Source: Halovivax ruber XH-70 (GTDB taxonomy: Archaea; Halobacteriota; Halobacteria; Halobacteriales; Natrialbaceae). Taken from it: 64,000 nt of DNA. Below the pieces are notes generated by a model. The model was not told where the DNA came from and searched no databases. It saw only the letters and a program-made list of their open reading frames with translations. Location: assembly GCF_000328525.1 (NCBI RefSeq), contig NC_019964.1, forward strand, positions 1,178,001 through 1,242,000, given 5' to 3'. Positions 50,356 through 59,112 of this stretch are shown here, piece by piece (position 1 is the stretch's first letter; each line of letters starts with the position of its first letter). Made by a program: the position numbers and the translations under genes.

Positions 50356-50774
50356 ACACGGCCGACCAGTATCTGAAGGCGGTCTACCTCGCCCAGCGGA
50401 TGGAAGACGGGCCCGCCGCGACGGGGACGCTCGCGGATATGCTGGACGTCAGCCCCGCCAGCGTCAACGAGATGGTCGGCAAACTGGAGGAGCGCGGCCT
50501 GCTCGAACACGAGAAGTACAAGGGTGCGACGCTGACCGACGAGGGGATCGAGCGCGCCCACGACGCACTGACGACCTACTGCATCATCGAGCGCTTCCTC
50601 ACGAACGTCCTCGAAGTCGAGGAGTTCCGCGACGAGGCCCGCGCCCTGGAGGCCGTCATCGACGATACGGTCGCCGAGCGCCTGGACACCATCATCGATC
50701 GCCCGGCGGAGTGCCCGGAGTGTTTCGACCCCGAAGCCGACTGCTGTTCCTATCTCGAACCGAGTCTGGACTAA
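50352..50774 (+). CDS. sirR: DtxR/MntR-family metal-dependent regulator (SirR/Idr-like)
   Basis: The 140-aa protein has the DtxR-type winged helix (MNTADQYLKAVYLAQRMEDG; TLADMLDVSPASVNEMVGKL; EERGLLEHEKYKGATLTDEG) and a metal-binding/dimerisation domain (CIIERFLTNVLEVEEF). The C-terminus has CPECFDPEADCC, a Cys-rich end typical of haloarchaeal Idr/SirR proteins. It represses metal uptake and storage genes when iron or manganese is plentiful in related species. Candidate target here: the ZIP transporter at 56793-57707. Confidence 0.92.
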   Translation: MNTADQYLKAVYLAQRMEDGPAATGTLADMLDVSPASVNEMVGKLEERGLLEHEKYKGATLTDEGIERAHDALTTYCIIERFLTNVLEVEEFRDEARALEAVIDDTVAERLDTIIDRPAECPECFDPEADCCSYLEPSLD

Positions 50775-51088
50775 GGCGGTTAGTCGCACGGACGGTCCGG
50801 TTGCAGTGTACCCTTTTATCGGAACTTCCCGGGTCACGGAAACCGATCGCGGGTCGCTCCCGCGGTCGGCGGCCGACACGGCTGGAAGTGTTCGCACACG
50901 AGATCCGGTCTGGCCGTGCCATGCCACCCCGATCGGCATCGCGTCGCGCTCCGGCTGGCCGCCCTCGACGGTCGACACCCAGCGGTGACGGATTCCCCAA
51001 TCCAACGGTCGACGGTGATTGCCCCGCCGAGAACGGCGTCGAAACGCGAGGCTACCGAGAGCGAGCGCGTGAGGGCTCGTGCGAGAGG

Positions 51089-51095
51089 TTTATAT
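51089..51095 (+). promoter_or_regulatory. TATA box TTTATAT
   Basis: TTTATAT is centred 24 bp before the ATG at 51116, the spacing expected for a leaderless haloarchaeal transcript. It could also drive a structured non-coding RNA. Confidence 0.5.
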
Positions 51096-51115
51096 CTCGC
51101 GGGGGATATCGAATC

Positions 51116-51181
51116 ATGGCTTCGGCCTTCGCGGGTTGGAAGCCACCGTCTCGGGTGTTATGGCACCTGGGACATTTTTAA
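51116..51181 (+). CDS. Possible 21-aa leaderless microprotein
   Basis: ATG 51116 lies 24 bp after a TATA box centre. The peptide is MASAFAGWKPPSRVLWHLGH followed by F and TAA. Two hairpins follow at once. No homologue is known to me, so it may be a peptide, part of a small RNA, or a gene remnant. Confidence 0.3.
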   Translation: MASAFAGWKPPSRVLWHLGHF

Positions 51182-51200
51182 GCGGGAACGAAGTTCCCGC
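51182..51200. repeat. 7-bp stem hairpin
   Basis: GCGGGAA and TTCCCGC pair around a CGAAG loop. It begins immediately after the TAA of the 21-codon frame. Confidence 0.65.
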
Positions 51201-51206
51201 GATGCT

Positions 51207-51229
51207 CGAAAGAGTCTGAGACTCTTTCG
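51207..51229. repeat. 10-bp stem hairpin
   Basis: CGAAAGAGTC and GACTCTTTCG pair perfectly around a TGA loop. Together with 51182-51200 it makes a double-hairpin 3' structure. Confidence 0.7.
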
Positions 51230-51529
51230 TTGTCGCGCACGTCCCCCAGCGGCAATCGATGGAGACGACAGTTTCCGGATTGGGATACGCCGGATAGTGA
51301 CTCATATCCAACTGTAGTGGGGCGGATTTTGCATGGTTGGGTGTGTTAGCGCTACCTTCTAGGATAGAAGCGAGAGGACGGGATATGAATCGGATTTTCG
51401 ATCGTGATCTGCCTTCATCGTAGATGATCGCTTCGGTGGCTGAAGACGATCGTTGCTGCAGGCCGAAAATTCCCGGCCGAAAAGTAACACTATTAGTCCG
51501 TCGGAGGATATCCAAGTGATGCGTACGGA

Positions 51530-51602
51530 GTCCCGTGGTGTAGTGGCCAATCATAGCGGCCTTTGGAGCCGCTGACGGCGGTTCGAATCCGCCCGGGACT
51601 AC
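51530..51602 (+). tRNA. tRNA-Gln (anticodon TTG)
   Basis: The acceptor stem is AGTCCCG / CGGGACT, the anticodon stem GCGGC / GCCGC with loop CTTTGGA (TTG), and the T arm GGCGG-TTCGAAT-CCGCC. The discriminator base is A (51602). CCA is not encoded. Confidence 0.96.
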
Positions 51603-52008: not shown

Positions 52009-53859
52009 ATGTTGGACCTTTCGAGACGCCGATTGCTGAAGGCCGGTGCCGCACTCGGATTGGTCGGGTCAGTTCCCGCTAGTTCGACTGCGATGGAAGG
52101 GGACGACGAGGGGCCGTCGTACTTCACCTCGCCCGACGTCGTTCACGAGAACAAGTACGTCCAGCCGCTTCCGATTCCGGACGAGCGCGAGCCCGACGGG
52201 ACCCGCAAGGGCAAGGAGTATCACGAACTCGAGATGCTGGAGGCCGAACATAGCTTCCACCCTGACCTCCCTGACACGACGATCTGGGGCTTCGACGGGC
52301 AGTTCCCCGGCCCCATCATCGCTGGACGGCGCAACGACAAACTCGCGATCGACTTCGACAACAGCAACCTGCCTGACGAGCACCTGTTCACGGTCGACGA
52401 GAACGTGGAGGGAACGACCACGGAGAACTACCACGGCTACGACGGCTCCGTCCCCGAGGTGCGCAATTCGACGCACGTCCACGGGCTCAACATCGATCCG
52501 GAAAACGACGGACAGGCCGATATGTGGAAATCGCCGGGCGGTGTGACGGGCCCGCGATTCTCGAACGACGTCCAGCAGCTTCCGAACCGCCAGCCTCGGC
52601 TCACGTCCATGTACCACGACCACACCCGGGGGCTCACGCGGCTCAACAACTACGCCGGACTGGTCGGTCCGTACTACATCCGGAGCAACAAGGAGGACAA
52701 ACTCGACCTCCCCGAGGGCGACTACGACATCCCGCTGGTTCTGGCGGACCGCTCGTTCACCGAAGACGGCGAGCTCCACTACCCGAAGATGTTCATGGCG
52801 AACGTCGCCGGCGACGTCGCGACGGTCAACGGTGCCGCGTTCCCGTCCCTCGAAGTCGAGCCGCGCCGGTACCGGTTCCGCCTCGTCAACGTCTCGAACG
52901 GTCGGACCTACGATCTCGGGCTGGACAACGACGATCCACACGGCCACGGCGCGCCGGCGCTCCACCAGATCTCGTCCGGCCACGGCTTCTTAGAGGAGGT
53001 CGTCGAGATCGGCCACCACGGCGACATGGACTCGCTGGTCGTGGCGCCGTTCGAGCGCGCCGAGATCATCGTGGACTTCTCCGAGTACGCCGGCGAGACG
53101 TTCACCGTGACCAACGACGCCACGTTCCCCTACGAGGGACCGATGGACCACGGCGGTGGCGGTCACGATGACGGTGGTCACGGCGGCATGAGCAGCATGG
53201 ACATGGACGATGGCATGGACCACGGTGGCGATCAGCCGCCGCTTCCGGAGATCATGCAGATCCAGGTGGCCGACGAGGTGACGGAGACCGATACGAGCAC
53301 ACCACCGACCCAACTCGACCTTCCGAGCCCGAAACGGGTGAACCCGAACGCAGCGAAGAAGACGCGGCAGGTAACCATGCAGATGGGGATGGACGACGAG
53401 GGCCTGATGATCCACACGCTCAACAACAAGCGGTGGAGCGACCCGATCGAGTTCACGCCCCAGCTCGGGTCGACGGAGATCTGGGAGCTGAAGAACGACG
53501 ACGACCACACGCACCCGATCCACCTACACCTCGTCGCGTTCGACGTCATCGAACGCGAATGGCACAACACCGACGAGGGACCGCGCCCGCCGCTGCCAAA
53601 CGAACGCGGCGGCAAGGACGTCGTCAAGGTAAACCCCGGCGAGACCGTCCGCATCGCCGTCGAGTTCAAGAACTTCGCCGGCAAGTACCCGTTCCACTGT
53701 CACATCTTAGAACACGAGGAACACGACATGATGCGGATGTTCGAGGTCGTCAAGGGAAATAGCGGCGATAACGGCCACGGTTCCGGTTCCGACGGAGAAG
53801 GGAAGCAGGGCCGAGGTCACGGTCGTGGTAATGGACGAGGTCACGGCCGACTCCGGTAA
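52009..53859 (+). CDS. Tat-exported multicopper oxidase
   Basis: The 616-aa protein begins with a twin-arginine signal (LSRRRLLKAGAALGLVGSVP). All four copper motifs are intact: HVHG (H156/H158), YHDHT (H203/H205), HPIHLHL (from H502) and HCHILEHEEHDMM, with T1 ligands C564, H569 and M574. It oxidises organic substrates or Cu(I) with reduction of O2 outside the cell. The pattern is closest to CotA/bilirubin oxidase-like enzymes. A His/Met/Asp-rich insertion at ~375-410 (MDHGGGGHDDGGHGGMSSMD) resembles the Met-rich copper-binding region of CueO. The C-terminus is glycine/arginine-rich. ATG 52009 is chosen over the in-frame GTG at 52006 because of the purine-rich run just upstream. Confidence 0.94.
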   Translation: MLDLSRRRLLKAGAALGLVGSVPASSTAMEGDDEGPSYFTSPDVVHENKYVQPLPIPDEREPDGTRKGKEYHELEMLEAEHSFHPDLPDTTIWGFDGQFPGPIIAGRRNDKLAIDFDNSNLPDEHLFTVDENVEGTTTENYHGYDGSVPEVRNSTHVHGLNIDPENDGQADMWKSPGGVTGPRFSNDVQQLPNRQPRLTSMYHDHTRGLTRLNNYAGLVGPYYIRSNKEDKLDLPEGDYDIPLVLADRSFTEDGELHYPKMFMANVAGDVATVNGAAFPSLEVEPRRYRFRLVNVSNGRTYDLGLDNDDPHGHGAPALHQISSGHGFLEEVVEIGHHGDMDSLVVAPFERAEIIVDFSEYAGETFTVTNDATFPYEGPMDHGGGGHDDGGHGGMSSMDMDDGMDHGGDQPPLPEIMQIQVADEVTETDTSTPPTQLDLPSPKRVNPNAAKKTRQVTMQMGMDDEGLMIHTLNNKRWSDPIEFTPQLGSTEIWELKNDDDHTHPIHLHLVAFDVIEREWHNTDEGPRPPLPNERGGKDVVKVNPGETVRIAVEFKNFAGKYPFHCHILEHEEHDMMRMFEVVKGNSGDNGHGSGSDGEGKQGRGHGRGNGRGHGRLR

Positions 53860-53991
53860 CTTCGTACGTCGCTTCGTCACCGGTTCGACCGTCTAGACGA
53901 AACCTCGTCTGACTATCGATCACGTCAGCTCGATCGAAAAACCGTCTGTATCGGGAAATTCGATCTGTAATCAGCTGTGCCGACGTATCGT

Positions 53992-54006
53992 TCTCTCTCT
54001 CTCTCT
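53992..54006. repeat. Short (TC) tract
   Basis: About seven TC units lie between the convergent oxidase and transducer genes. Confidence 0.8.
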
Positions 54007-54088
54007 GCGCTCGATCCGATTCAACCTCAGAATCGACCGGTTTGAACGTACTGAAAAGGATGCGAACCGATCGCCGTCGGTCGATGAG

Positions 54089-56485
54089 TTACCGTTCCCG
54101 GTCGTTCACGTCGGCGGTCCGCGGTTCTTCATCTTCGTCGTCAGACTCGGACGACGTCTCGCCGTGTTCGGCGAACGAAAATTCGTCCGCATCGTCCGAT
54201 TTCGATCCCTGGTCGGCATGGTGTCCGGTCTCGAATTCGTCGAGCTTCGACGAGAGTTCGGCGGCCTGTTGTGAGAGGTCGCTCGCGGAACGGGAGACCT
54301 CCGTGATCGCCGTCGTCTGTTCTTCGGCTGCCGCAGCGACGGTTTCGGCCTCCGTCGTCGTCTCTTCGGAGATCGTCGCTGCCTGATCGACCATGGAGAC
54401 GACTTCCTGTGTCGTCGCTGCTTGCTGTTCGGTAGCCGCGGAAATCTCCTGGATTCCATCGCTCGTTTCACTCGCGTACTCGGCGATTTCTTCCAGCGCA
54501 TCGACAGTATCCTCGACCGCCTGGCGGTGACGGGCAATTCGCTCACTGGTCTGCCTGACCTCCCCTGCCGCGTAATTGGTTTCCTCTTCGATCTCCTCGA
54601 TTCGTTCCTCGATGTCTCTGGCCGCTTTTTGCGTGTCCTCTGAGAGTTCCTTGACCTGATCGGCGACCGCCGAGAATCCATCGTTGGATTGCGTCGCTCG
54701 ACTGGCCTCGATGTTGGCGTTCAGGGCCAACATGTTCGTCTGTTCGGCGACTTCGGTGATGAATTCGACCAGTTCGTCGATCTGGGCGACCTCCTCCTCG
54801 AGGGATTCGATCGCGTCGACGGCCCCTTCAGATTCGGTCTCGATCTCGTTCATTCCGTCGATAGCGCTGCGTGCGACGTCACGACCCTCGTTGCCGGTTT
54901 TTGCGGTCCGCTCGGCGAGATCGGCGACGGTGTGGGACGACGAAGCGATCTCTTCGGTCGTCGTCGAGAGCTCGTTCATCTCTCCGTTGACGGCCTGCAG
55001 ACTCTCGTTCTGGCGTTCCGCGCCGTCGGAGATCTCCTGGACCGACTCCGTGACCTGGGTGCTCGCCGTGTGAACTTCCTCCGTGCTCGCGGTCACTTCC
55101 TCACTCGCCGCCGCGACCTCGTCAGCGAACTGGGAGACCCGTTCGACGGTCTCTTCGAGGTTAGAGAGCATCTGATTGAACTCGAGTGCGATTTCTGTCA
55201 TCGCATCGTTCTGGCTCTCGGGATCCATTCGCCGACTGAGATCGCCCTCTCCACACGCTCGCATCACACTCGAATACTCGTCGGCTTTCGCCTCGAGATG
55301 GGTGTTGATGCGATCGGTTCGGCTGCGTTCTTCCTCTGCTTCCTGGCGTGCCTCCTCCGCTTCCTGGATTTGACCGCGTAGCGAGGCGCGCATACTGTCG
55401 AACGCGTTGTACAGTTGACCGATCTCGTCGGGCCGGTTCGACGATAGTTCCGCTTCGAGGTTTCCAGCTTCGAGTTCCGATGCCCGATCGGCCAGCCGCG
55501 TGATCGGACGGGACGTGTTTCGCACGATTACGACTCCGACAGCACCGAGACTGAGCATCGAGAGTACTACAAGCGCCAGCACGGATCGGGTGATGTCGTC
55601 TTGCAGTGCGAACGCCGTGTCGACCGGCGTGTGAGTCATGATAACCCAGTCGGTCCCGGGAATCGGCGCGTAGCCCATTGCCATCTCGGCGTGGTCTCCG
55701 TGCGCCATCTCCATTTCGGTGTATCCCGATTTGCCGTCGATTCCGCGTTTGACGGCCTCCGATTCGGCTACATACTCGTTTTCGGGCCCCATGTTCTGCG
55801 TGTTGATGTCCATCGCGTGGTGACTCATCACGACCGTCCCGCGGGAATCGACGATGTGCGTGAAGGACTCGTCGGTGGCGGTCGGTCGTTCGAGCTGTTG
55901 AACCTGCGATTCGAGATCGACGATCACGACGATCGCCCGATCGGGATTTTCCGGGACCTGACTGACGAAGGCGACCGCGTTTGTCTCCGTCGTCGGATCG
56001 AGATACGGATGTGTTACCCGTGTCTGATCTGGGGTTTCGAGGGCGAGTCCCTCGAGTGCCCATTCGATGTCGGCGTCTCGGTAATTCACGCCGTCCGCGC
56101 TCGCTTCCGTACTGGTAAGGACCTCTTGTTCGCCCGTATCGTAGTAGTGAATACCCGCGATGGATGCGGAGCTATCTTGTTGTTCGCTTCTCAGATAGTC
56201 AGCTATCTCTGCGCTATCGCCGCCAGCGACTTGACCTGATGCCGAGAGATATTGCGTTTTTTCTCGCGTACGGTCTACCCATTCACTGATGGTATTCGCC
56301 TGCAGCGTCGTCGATTGCGTCATCTCCTGCTCGGTACTGTCCTGGAGTGAAGATTCCGTCTGGAGGTAGATGGCTCCCCCGACCGCTGCAACGAGCAGCA
56401 GGACGAGCAAAAACAGCAACGAAAGTTTTCGCAAAAAGCTACTCCGGAGTGCTCTGATCGGTGATGCTGAAAGGCGCTTACTCAT
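54089..56485 (-). CDS. Methyl-accepting chemotaxis transducer (cache-type, second)
   Basis: The 798-aa receptor has a first helix at ~20-41 ([20 protein letters not shown]), an extracellular cache-type sensor at ~45-295, a second helix at ~299-319, HAMP ([18 protein letters not shown]) and a signalling coiled coil with tip [19 protein letters not shown]. Its sensor shares [20 protein letters not shown] with the transducer at 19376-21664, so they are paralogues. The ligand is unknown. It converges with the multicopper oxidase. Confidence 0.93.
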
Positions 56486-56792
56486 GTTTAGTAGGCAGAA
56501 ACGTTAGTGGGTCAAATAATTACTGCTTTGATGACAACTCATCGTGATCTGTAGGCGCGACCCCCGACGCAGAGGGTATTTTATCCATCTTCTATATGAC
56601 TAGATTGTTACTATTACGGTCGGTTCCGACCGATCCAATACGGGATCGTCGAGGTCCATTCGGCGTCGTTAAGAGATGTGTTCGAGTTCCGCTGTGGATC
56701 GGTTAGCCGCTTCTTCCGGTACTCCCCAGTCATCGACGATCGCTCGAGCAGCATTTCGAAGTCCTGGCGATCGACGCAAATAGACTGATCGA
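56486..56792. other. Interval between the transducer and ZIP genes
   Basis: I see no gene in these 307 bp. CGGTCGG and CCGACCG (56617-56632) form a 7-bp inverted repeat with a 2-base loop. The right part, before the ZIP stop, is GC-richer and featureless. The transducer promoter must lie in 56486-56600, which is AT-rich. Confidence 0.55.
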
Positions 56793-57707
56793 TCAGATCA
56801 CCATCAGCGGCAACATCGCGAGCGTGCCAATCCCGAACCCGGCGGCGAGTTCCTTGTATCCGTTGCCCGGCAGCTCCTCACCGGTTTCGAGCGCTTCGGG
56901 GATGAACTCTGTCGCGACGAGGTAGACCATCGCGCCGGCGGCGAAGCCGAAGCCGAAGGGGAGGAAGTCCCGAGCCCAGGAGACGAACCCGTAGGCGATG
57001 ACCGCGCCGATGGGTTGGGGGAGGCTGGAAAAGACTGCGGCGCCGACCATCCGCCACTTCGAGAGGCCCATCGCGCGCATCGGGATCGCGATGGCGGTTC
57101 CCTCCGGGATGTTGTGGATCGAGATCGCGACGGTCATGAAGACGGCGAGTAGGGGAATCGAGAAGCCGAGGACGGAGAGCCCGCCGTCGAACCCGAGTTC
57201 GGCGAACGAGACCCCGACGGCGACACCCTCGGGGAAGCTGTGGATCGTGAGAATGCCGAGGATGAGCAAGAGCGTCTTGGGGTTGCCCTCGGCGATGGCC
57301 TTCGCTTCGACGGCGTGGTCGTCGTGGCCGTGGCCAGCACCGTCGGTCTGGATGTCTTCCGTCTCCGGAACGTCGGCGTCGTGCTCGTGATCGTGTGAGC
57401 TCCCGGTGCCGTCGTCGATGTCGACCCAGTTGAGTACCAGATCACCGATTTCGACGAGGGCGACGCCGGCCAGCAGCCCGAGGATGAGCATCGTCGGGAT
57501 GCCACTCGAGGCGTAGGCGAGCCCCTCGTCCGCGAGCCCGAAGACGGAGACCGTGACCATGATCCCCGACGCGGTTCCCCACAGGCCGACGTTCCATCGA
57601 TCGCTGAAATCCTCGACGAAGAAGAACGGAATCGCACCGAGCCCTGTCGCGAGCGCGGTGATGAGGCCGGCGACGAAGACGAGGACGAGGTTCTCGATCG
57701 CTACCAT
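56793..57707 (-). CDS. ZIP-family metal transporter
   Basis: The 304-aa transporter has eight predicted membrane helices and the ZIP metal-site motifs HSFPEGVAVGVSFAE (helix IV) and ISIHNIPEGTAIAIP (helix V). A His/Asp-rich loop (SHDHEHDADVPETEDIQTDG, then HGHDDHAVEAK) links helices III and IV and probably binds metal. It imports Zn, Fe or Mn. ATG 57707 (MVAIENLVLVFV) is preferred; an ATG at 57746 would add 13 residues. Two dyads lie directly upstream (57740-57776). Confidence 0.93.
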   Translation of the reverse strand: MVAIENLVLVFVAGLITALATGLGAIPFFFVEDFSDRWNVGLWGTASGIMVTVSVFGLADEGLAYASSGIPTMLILGLLAGVALVEIGDLVLNWVDIDDGTGSSHDHEHDADVPETEDIQTDGAGHGHDDHAVEAKAIAEGNPKTLLLILGILTIHSFPEGVAVGVSFAELGFDGGLSVLGFSIPLLAVFMTVAISIHNIPEGTAIAIPMRAMGLSKWRMVGAAVFSSLPQPIGAVIAYGFVSWARDFLPFGFGFAAGAMVYLVATEFIPEALETGEELPGNGYKELAAGFGIGTLAMLPLMVI

Positions 57708-57739
57708 GCCCGTCTCTATGGACAGCTGTGCAAAAACAC

Positions 57740-57776
57740 TTTCCAATTCGGAAACCAGATTTTGGCAATCCTAAAA
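57740..57776. promoter_or_regulatory. Paired dyads upstream of the ZIP gene
   Basis: TTTCCAATTCGGAAA (57740-57754) has two perfect 5-bp arms. A second, imperfect dyad TTTTGGCAATCCTAAAA (57760-57776) resembles DtxR-type boxes (TTAGGnnnnCCTAA). Their centres are 21 bp apart, two helical turns, and 40-61 bp ahead of ATG 57707. They are plausible metal-regulator operators. Confidence 0.45.
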
Positions 57777-57945
57777 CGTAGTCGGGGGTTTGGCGGTAGC
57801 GTGTCCACTGGTGGGAAGGAACGAGGAGGGTATCTACCCGTGCGCGAGTCCCACGTGCGTTCTGTGGCCGACCCGAGTCTATCGAGGTGCGTTCCGACCG
57901 GCACGGTGAGCAAACGCCTTGAAGGCCCCGTTCGAAGCGTGACCA

Positions 57946-59112
57946 ATGACCGCGTCCCAGCCGACGTTCGACTACGAAGCACGAACGCGAGCGTGCCAGG
58001 AGGCGCTCGCAGACCGCGCCATCGAGTGTGTCGTCCTCTCTCCGGGGCCGAACATGACCTATCTCTCCGGGTTCGTCGACGAACCGATGGAACGCCATCT
58101 CCTACTGTTCGTCCCGCAGTCCGGCGAGCCGATCTTCCTCGCACCGACGATGTACGACGAACAGCTTCAGGCGGACTCGTGGGTTTCACGGCGTCGGCTC
58201 TGGGACGACGGTGACGATCCGACGGACGCGCTGGCCGAGATCGTCGCCGACCTCGATCTCGCTGGCGGGCGTGTCCTCGTCGACGATCGAATGTGGGCGC
58301 TCTTCACGCAGGACCTCCGCGACGCCATGCCTGACGCCACGTTCGGCCTCGCGAGCGAGGTTCTGACCGAGCTCCGTCTGACCAAGAGCGAGGCGGAACT
58401 CGAAGTGATGGCACGAGCGGCCACTGTCGCGGACGACGTGAGCGTCGAAATTCGCGAACTCGGCTCGTCGGCGGTGGGGATGACCGAGGCCGAACTGGCT
58501 CGGGAGATCGAGACGCGACTCGCCGATCACGGTGGCGACGGTCCCTCGTTCGAGACCATCGTCGGTGCCGGGCCGAACGGAGCGAAGCCCCACCACCGGC
58601 ATGGCGATCGAGCGATCCGAGCCGGCGACCCGGTCGTCCTCGATTTCGGAACGCGCGTCGACGGCTATCCGAGCGACCAGACGCGAACGGTCGTCTTCGG
58701 TGAGGACGATTCGACGGCAACGGGGGACAGCACTGGGCCGGAGACGGTCCCCGACGAATTCAGCCGAGTCTTCGAGACCGTCCGCGAGGCCCAGGAAACG
58801 GCTGTCGCCGCTGTCGAACCCGGGATCCCAGCGGAAGCCGTCGACCGGGCCGCCAGAGACGTCATCGAGGCGGCCGGCTACGGCGAGCAGTTCGTCCACC
58901 GAACGGGTCACGGCGTCGGCCTCGAAGTTCACGAACCACCGTACATCGTCGCCGGGAACGAGCGCACGCTCGAACCGGGCATGGTCTTCAGCATCGAGCC
59001 GGGTATTTACGTACAGGATTCGTTCGGCGTTCGGATCGAGGATCTCGTCGTGGTCACCGAGGACGGCTGCCGGCGTCTGAACGACTCGCCGCACGGATAC
59101 ACGGTGCGCTAA
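57946..59112 (+). CDS. M24-family metallopeptidase (Xaa-Pro dipeptidase/aminopeptidase-like)
   Basis: The 388-aa protein has the creatinase-like N-terminal domain and a C-terminal pita-bread domain with all metal ligands visible: D in [10 protein letters not shown] in [11 protein letters not shown] in [14 protein letters not shown] in FSIEPGIY and E in RIEDLVV. It hydrolyses Xaa-Pro peptide bonds by analogy with the family. The start is ATG 57946; it diverges from the ZIP gene across 238 bp. Confidence 0.93.

Follow-up and report, generated by a model that had tools for sequence, protein, structure and literature searches.

A probable orphan copy of a class-wide haloarchaeal leader RNA, partly worn and read from the minus strand, beside tRNA-Gln in Halovivax ruber

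The window studied here is a stretch of 64,000 nucleotides of DNA from Halovivax ruber XH-70, a genome that was searched as one contig of 3,223,876 bases. Our subject is a near-empty interval of 754 bp in this window, running from an open reading frame (ORF) that ends at 50774 to a tRNA-Gln gene at 51529-51602, in which no convincing gene is seen. A sequence-only reading of the interval had singled out a TTTATAT box at 51089-51095, an ATG at 51116-51118 of the plus strand that opens a 21-codon frame (MASAFAGWKPPSRVLWHLGHF; stop codon TAA at 51179-51181) and two perfect inverted repeats at 51182-51200 (8-nt arms) and 51207-51229 (11-nt arms), and had proposed that the box drives a small RNA or a microprotein gene, or that the whole is the 5' remnant of a lost gene. 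We find each of these features in its place, as well as the tRNA neighbor and the empty interval, and the fold of 51115-51236 is stronger than that of shuffled sequences (z -6.0; 0 of 200 shuffles).

The genome-wide search for copies that had been suggested brings the element into focus: the segment from about 51077 to 51178 has ten further matches in the same genome at E 0.01 or better. With a 181-base query we once again see ten other places in the genome (E 0.01 or better) besides the element's own palindrome, and many in its relatives. A text pattern applied to 58 loci collects 47 copies with a common anatomy, across which the plus-strand frame varies from 3 to 148 codons and has 21 codons in 4 only, which tells against a microprotein gene. 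As far as sequence can tell, the minus strand carries, from 51278 to 51115, one of many dispersed copies of a structured RNA, followed by a leader ORF that extends to 51052. The suggestion of a small RNA was thus right in that a structured RNA is present, but it took the wrong strand and assigned the parts wrongly.

Read along the minus strand, the copy is preceded by a weakened TATA element at 51300-51309 (GGATATGAGT, where three corresponding loci of the genus have TAGATATAAGT). The core is modeled as a three-way junction which stem P1 closes and in which hairpins P3 and P2 follow each other with zero bases between them. The 5' strand of P1 (S1, GGAAACUGUCGUCUCC) occupies 51261-51276, where a G-to-A change breaks one pair, and the 3' strand (S2, GAGACGGUGGCUUCC) occupies 51138-51152. 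In P3, GGGACGU at 51239-51245 faces AUGUCCC at 51169-51175; S1 and the first P3 strand are placed with the help of covariation, the second P3 strand by the sequence and a hand-drawn structure. Hairpin P2 (51153-51168) reads AGGUG-CCAUAA-CACCC here and mostly GGGUG-loop-CACCC in other copies. The two inverted repeats do not belong to the conserved core: both sit in a 55-nt insertion in the P3 loop (51179-51233, with edges good to a base or two). S2 is common to P1 and to a further hairpin, P4 (GGCUUCCAACCCGCGAAGGCCGAAGCC, 51118-51144), which abuts the leader AUG, and because both use the S2 strand, P1 and P4 are mutually exclusive by folding. The P4 pairing of the window copy is also seen in the fold of the complementary strand. 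The leader ORF (MIRYPPRDINLSHEPSRARSR, 51052-51117, start codon 51117-51115) has 21 codons after a one-base deletion and contains hairpin P5 (CGAGAUAUAAACCUCUCG, 51082-51099). TTTATAT, which had been taken for a promoter, is the complement of the A-rich loop of this hairpin. P5 is strong in the set from the home family, that of the window (mean z -2.43 over 166 copies; control windows, -0.27), and weak outside it (mean z -0.63, against -0.19 in controls).

The strand can be told from the alignments themselves, because G-U pairs are valid on one strand only. In the minus-strand reading, G-U cells outnumber A-C cells at paired columns by 46:14, 70:9 and 56:10 in alignments A2, A3 and A4, respectively, and by 42:13 on the unfitted alignment A1 with the hand-drawn minus-strand structure; it is because of this asymmetry that we assign the RNA to the minus strand. 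The pairs also covary. In A4 (66 sequences) there are two-sided changes in 16 of 20 pairs (75 cells) and the covariation score is 0.235, against 0.120 in shuffles (0 of 500) and at most 0.089 when the partner is slid; the score is 0.275 against 0.127 in shuffles for A5 (38 sequences) and 0.135 against 0.100 for A3 (81 close sequences, with two-sided changes in 4 pairs, no more than in shuffles), all of this in a series (A2-A5) that was fitted to the minus-strand model, so that its covariation leans towards that model. RNAalifold on A1, an unfitted MAFFT alignment, gives two-sided changes in 3 of 17 pairs and a covariation term of 0.04; with the hand-drawn structure, 18 of the 43 copies have A-U and another 18 have G-C at one P3 pair. 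By sequence only, then, we find a conserved structured domain in a predicted mRNA 5' leader.

How do these data bear on the proposal that TTTATAT drives a small RNA or a microprotein gene on the plus strand? The box is well spaced from the plus-strand ATG, its region is conserved among same-family copies, and the RNAalifold consensus energy on the full-length unfitted alignment is slightly better for the plus strand (-21.2) than for the minus strand (-19.1). Set against this are the G-U counts, the erratic frame length among the 47 copies, the distant homologues, in which the complement of the loop is by eye mostly not TATA-like, and the coupled genes and the TATA upstream of P1, which lie on the minus strand. 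We consider a plus-strand gene very improbable.

The promoter of the minus-strand RNA is visible at a fixed distance from the fold. The A+T fraction is 0.96-1.00 at -30 to -26 from P1, with TATAA the commonest bases, in 167 aligned copies (a set that includes twelve loci of other families and omits the window copy, which the model misaligned across the insertion), and 55 other copies have 89-93 percent A+T at -30 to -28. From the TATA position upstream of P1, transcription is expected to start at P1. At its other end the core finishes in AUG in 182 of 187 model matches, and the segment from S2 to this AUG folds on itself: the hairpin starts at the first nucleotide of S2 in 149 of 167 copies of the home set and in 47 of the 51 sites kept from a further 53. 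The last paired base of P4 is directly before the AUG in 145 of the 167 and lies 0-2 nt from it in 151 of the 167 and 47 of the 51; mean z of P4 is -2.58 in the home set and -1.69 in the others. Covariation in P4 columns is weak (the third pair is C-G in 46 sequences and U-A in 5, but C-A in 10, n=66). The modeled folds make an exchange of the S2 strand between P1 and P4 the likely mechanism.

What lies behind the AUG in the home family is a short ORF, and 108 of 158 same-family cores have, -8 to +4 nt from its stop codon, the start of an ORF that passes our zinc rule; in 73 of the 108 the offset is -1, as ATGA or GTGA. The stop of the first ORF therefore overlaps or abuts the start of the second, which is the layout of translational coupling. 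For codons 16-49 of the 50-codon leader ORF that 15 Halovivax copies share, dN/dS is 0.80 (off-frame controls 0.83 and 0.71), so that no purifying selection on the leader peptide is seen past codon 15 in these copies; for the coupled zinc ORF, crude dN/dS is 0.49. Changes in codons 1-15, which overlap P5, fall mostly in third positions (73 percent). The act of translation thus seems more important here than the peptide sequence. A leader-peptide arrest model was considered as well, and is unsupported by the codon analysis past codon 15.

Now we consider the association with zinc-binding proteins. The rule we use is crude, being a count of motifs. It finds a zinc ORF at 115 of 158 distinct same-family cores, seven of these in the leader ORF itself or in a fusion; these cores, which include paralogues and are not independent, so that Fisher values for them are too optimistic, remain after four weak antisense or partial matches and twelve other-family loci are removed, and the window copy is counted as a failure. 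The 43 cores that fail are in part at locus ends and in part clear orphans. Among all 187 matches, which include duplicate records and the four weak antisense or partial matches, 126 have a zinc ORF and 79 the ATGA overlap. The zinc gene is present at 33 of the 47 copies of the text-pattern set and at 22 of 24 copies in this genome, where the window copy and one other (L249) are without it. A further 63 sites, 60 outside the home family and three from it, were taken among the matches listed in genomes already flagged by the model, and 45 of them pass the rule (43 in the first ORF, 2 in a coupled second ORF); restricted to first ORFs of 40-220 aa, 39 of 49 pass. As background, 19 of 252 small acidic ORFs away from leaders (in the loci and the window) pass, a rough comparison in that the leader set, unlike the background, had two ORFs and no composition filter. 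Of the 18 failing sites, L274 and L219, and the second ORFs at L220, L280, L306 and L303, have zinc-like motifs by eye; others, such as L260, L266, L270, L275, L282, L283 and L315, have none by eye.

The proteins themselves are diverse. One (L264) is a SWIM protein, above the Pfam cut-off, and the other coupled proteins are by eye zinc ribbons, a treble-clef-like protein of about 200 aa and CPVEGCD-type fingers. Five zinc-ribbon proteins have no family above cut-off in Pfam or NCBIfam, a zinc-ribbon consensus finds nothing convincing among solved structures, and PHROGs and PADLOC return weak matches only (E 0.05 or worse; 0.02). Small size and C(P)XCG motifs are shared with the zinc finger micro-proteins of Haloferax volcanii (PMC11241148, PMC10716476), where the starts of the abstracts mention no leader RNA. 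Five copies in G199, a genome of another family, each have a Cys-rich ORF of 44-45 codons (L211, L218, L225, L229, L233), and at L211 a second Cys-rich ORF overlaps the end of the first.

Eleven of the 63 sites (L272, L273, L277, L281, L266, L296, L297, L299, L302, L312, L313) have the leader at the head of an operon, with a gene for a RAMP-superfamily-like protein of about 305 aa in second place. The first ORF passes the zinc rule in ten of these operons, L266 being the exception, and by eye the L281 operon has a Lon-like and the L273 operon a PLD-like neighbor. One of the ~305-aa proteins matches Pfam RAMPs at E 0.034, below the cut-off, and has no match in PADLOC. HRAMP loci are haloarchaeal loci derived from Cas5 and Cas7 (PMC8730458), with Cas5- and Cas7-like proteins and nucleases but no array. 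The leader operons resemble them by that second gene and are possibly HRAMP, whereas most copies of the leader have no such operon.

How widespread is the RNA? With covariance model R1 we count 24 sense copies in this genome, 28 in the same-genus genome G003 and 21 in G167, leaving out one weak antisense match each in the first two; G199 has 19 R1 matches with weaker scores. A second model (R2), built from 38 sequences with distant ones included, matches 186 of the 391 genomes of the class and 66 of its 86 genera at E 1e-3, and 18 of 294 genomes in a sample of the phylum at E 1e-4, all in the order of the window. The exact core pattern occurs in at least 120 stretches in named genomes, and at 80 loci among the matches listed. 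The genera of these records are presumably Natrialbaceae, the family being printed for Halopiger, Natrarchaeobaculum and Natribaculum. Sixteen plasmid records carry the pattern, in 27 places. Rfam 15 has no family that matches the RNA in the window, in the interval (at a loose threshold too) or in 10 good members; its matches there are tRNAs and one snoRNA model (E 0.12, far below the gathering score and outside the leader). A guide RNA of the box C/D or H/ACA kind is unsupported, likewise for want of an Rfam match. In the open-licence literature we found no description of this RNA by title or the start of the abstract, and no paper that joins 'zinc riboswitch' and 'archaea'. The folded RNA is apparently undescribed so far.

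A viral source of the leader RNA is unsupported by our searches. The exact home-family pattern has 0 occurrences in viral contigs, and R2 matches none of five halovirus records, nor one IMG/VR contig, all of which carry related zinc proteins. BLAST with leader regions from other families reaches two plasmid records for L267 and four for L272, and no plasmid record for L264; phage records match the ORF behind L220 but not its leader, and the L219 query matches nothing. The second ORF behind L220 resembles a halovirus 'CxxC motif protein' (L257, Serpecor1 52349-58413), and no leader is found in Serpecor1 despite the similar protein.

The many copies per genome, in variable number, and the similar orphan copies within one genome could also be those of a MITE-like mobile repeat whose palindromes serve transposition. 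Such a repeat would not be expected to show the compensatory pair changes, the G-U asymmetry, the fixed TATA position and the coupled ORF; moreover, inspection by eye of six copies from a single genome (G167) shows no target-site duplication, and at the corresponding locus of four genomes the core is better conserved than its flanks. We therefore hold a MITE-like origin of the pattern to be improbable. In G167 the closely similar orphan copies (L059, L215, L222, L226, L230, L234), which have no zinc gene, resemble one another from the promoter onwards to roughly 300 nt beyond P1.

The comparison within the genus shows what has become of the window copy. Three same-genus genomes (G003, G001, G004) retain the RNA in the matching position next to tRNA-Gln, and the gene on the other flank, DtxR-like by eye, is common to the window, G003 and G004. 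At these three loci, identity to the window is 82-93 percent in the core segments and 80-97 percent in the leader segment, against 52-82 percent in the flanks. The zinc gene is absent from all four corresponding copies. Among the four, only the window copy shows the TATA change, the broken P1 pair, the one-base deletion in the leader ORF (69, 60 and 104 codons long in the other three) and the 55-nt insertion, which none of the three corresponding loci has. The P3 loop holds a closely similar two-hairpin insert of about 55 nt, in the same position, at L011, L045 and L046, in two other genomes of the genus, and because L046 combines it with an intact coupled zinc gene, the insert appears to be tolerated. 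Its TATA element is weakened, P1 has lost a pair, the leader ORF is frameshifted and the zinc gene is missing, so that the window copy may no longer be functional. One could instead suppose that the copy, having no zinc gene, is now a stand-alone RNA of about 200-270 nt. The greater likeness of core and leader than of flanks at the three corresponding loci would fit, as would the existence of other orphan subtypes, but the same four derived changes, three of them likely defects, make this rather unlikely. In G001 (L012), the tRNA-Gln gene has extra bases after the anticodon region that the other three lack, by eye perhaps a tRNA intron.

Taken as a whole, the evidence makes it probable that the locus holds an orphan copy, already partly worn, of a class-wide cis-regulatory leader RNA of haloarchaea, read from the minus strand. 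The idea of a 5' remnant of a lost gene fits this copy, since most copies have a coupled zinc-binding ORF that is absent here, although the strand was the other one. In intact copies, a TATA about 28 nt upstream would start the RNA at stem P1, and the RNA would fold into the three-way junction of P1, P3 and P2. The 3' strand of P1 could alternatively pair with the segment just before the AUG to give hairpin P4. Formation of P1, whether driven by a bound ligand or protein or simply the default state, would leave the AUG open; if P4 is formed, initiation would be blocked. In the home family the AUG would open the short leader ORF, whose stop overlaps or lies near the start of a small zinc-binding protein, and this protein would be made through translational coupling; in distant families the AUG often appears to open the zinc-binding protein itself.

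What signal might set such a switch? From the genes behind the leader, zinc status or the zinc protein is the most likely candidate. Zinc-binding modules often bind RNA. The zinc-binding protein might therefore bind its own leader and stabilize P1 or P4, in keeping with this general habit of such modules and with the frequent pairing of leader and zinc protein. Two observations sit poorly with autoregulation: the same RNA precedes proteins that look unrelated (SWIM, zinc ribbon, treble-clef-like, with SWIM alone above the cut-off), and orphan copies retain the RNA without the protein. We see it as a real possibility, though not one we would expect to hold. A more speculative extension, which we judge unlikely, is a class-wide family of haloarchaeal riboswitches responding to zinc (or to a signal that depends on zinc), which would act through strand exchange at the start codon, often by way of a coupled leader ORF, and would control a regulon of at most two dozen small zinc-binding proteins per genome together with the first genes of the HRAMP-like operons.

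Two kinds of known system resemble the cis-regulatory leader proposed here. In translational riboswitches, too, a junction-shaped domain precedes a strand with two alternative partners, the domain itself and the segment before the start codon; the leader RNA differs in having no Rfam match and, in the home family, in passing its output through a coupled leader ORF. ATGA-coupled leader ORFs likewise are short ORFs whose stop overlaps the next start, whereas here the peptide is unconserved past codon 15 and a structured RNA lies upstream of the short ORF. Haloarchaeal messages are mostly leaderless or have short leaders, and to our knowledge few natural structured leader RNAs are known in archaea. 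An RNA whose fold is found in 186 of 391 genomes, with 19 to 28 copies in the four genomes counted, makes two questions testable together: by what means structured 5' leaders govern translation in haloarchaea, and what the role of their many tiny zinc proteins is. If zinc is the signal, it would be a ligand class not known so far for an RNA switch.

The surroundings of single copies hold two smaller observations. At L012, L044, L046, L052, L054 and L214 the leader lies beside genes that by eye are toxin-antitoxin-like (PIN, VapB-like, RelE-like, DUF433/DUF5615-like and MazE/MazF-like). At L052, two near-alike leader copies (L052:1452-1553 and L052:2595-2696) stand 1.1 kb apart with a RelE-like ORF between them, and their similarity suggests a recent duplication.
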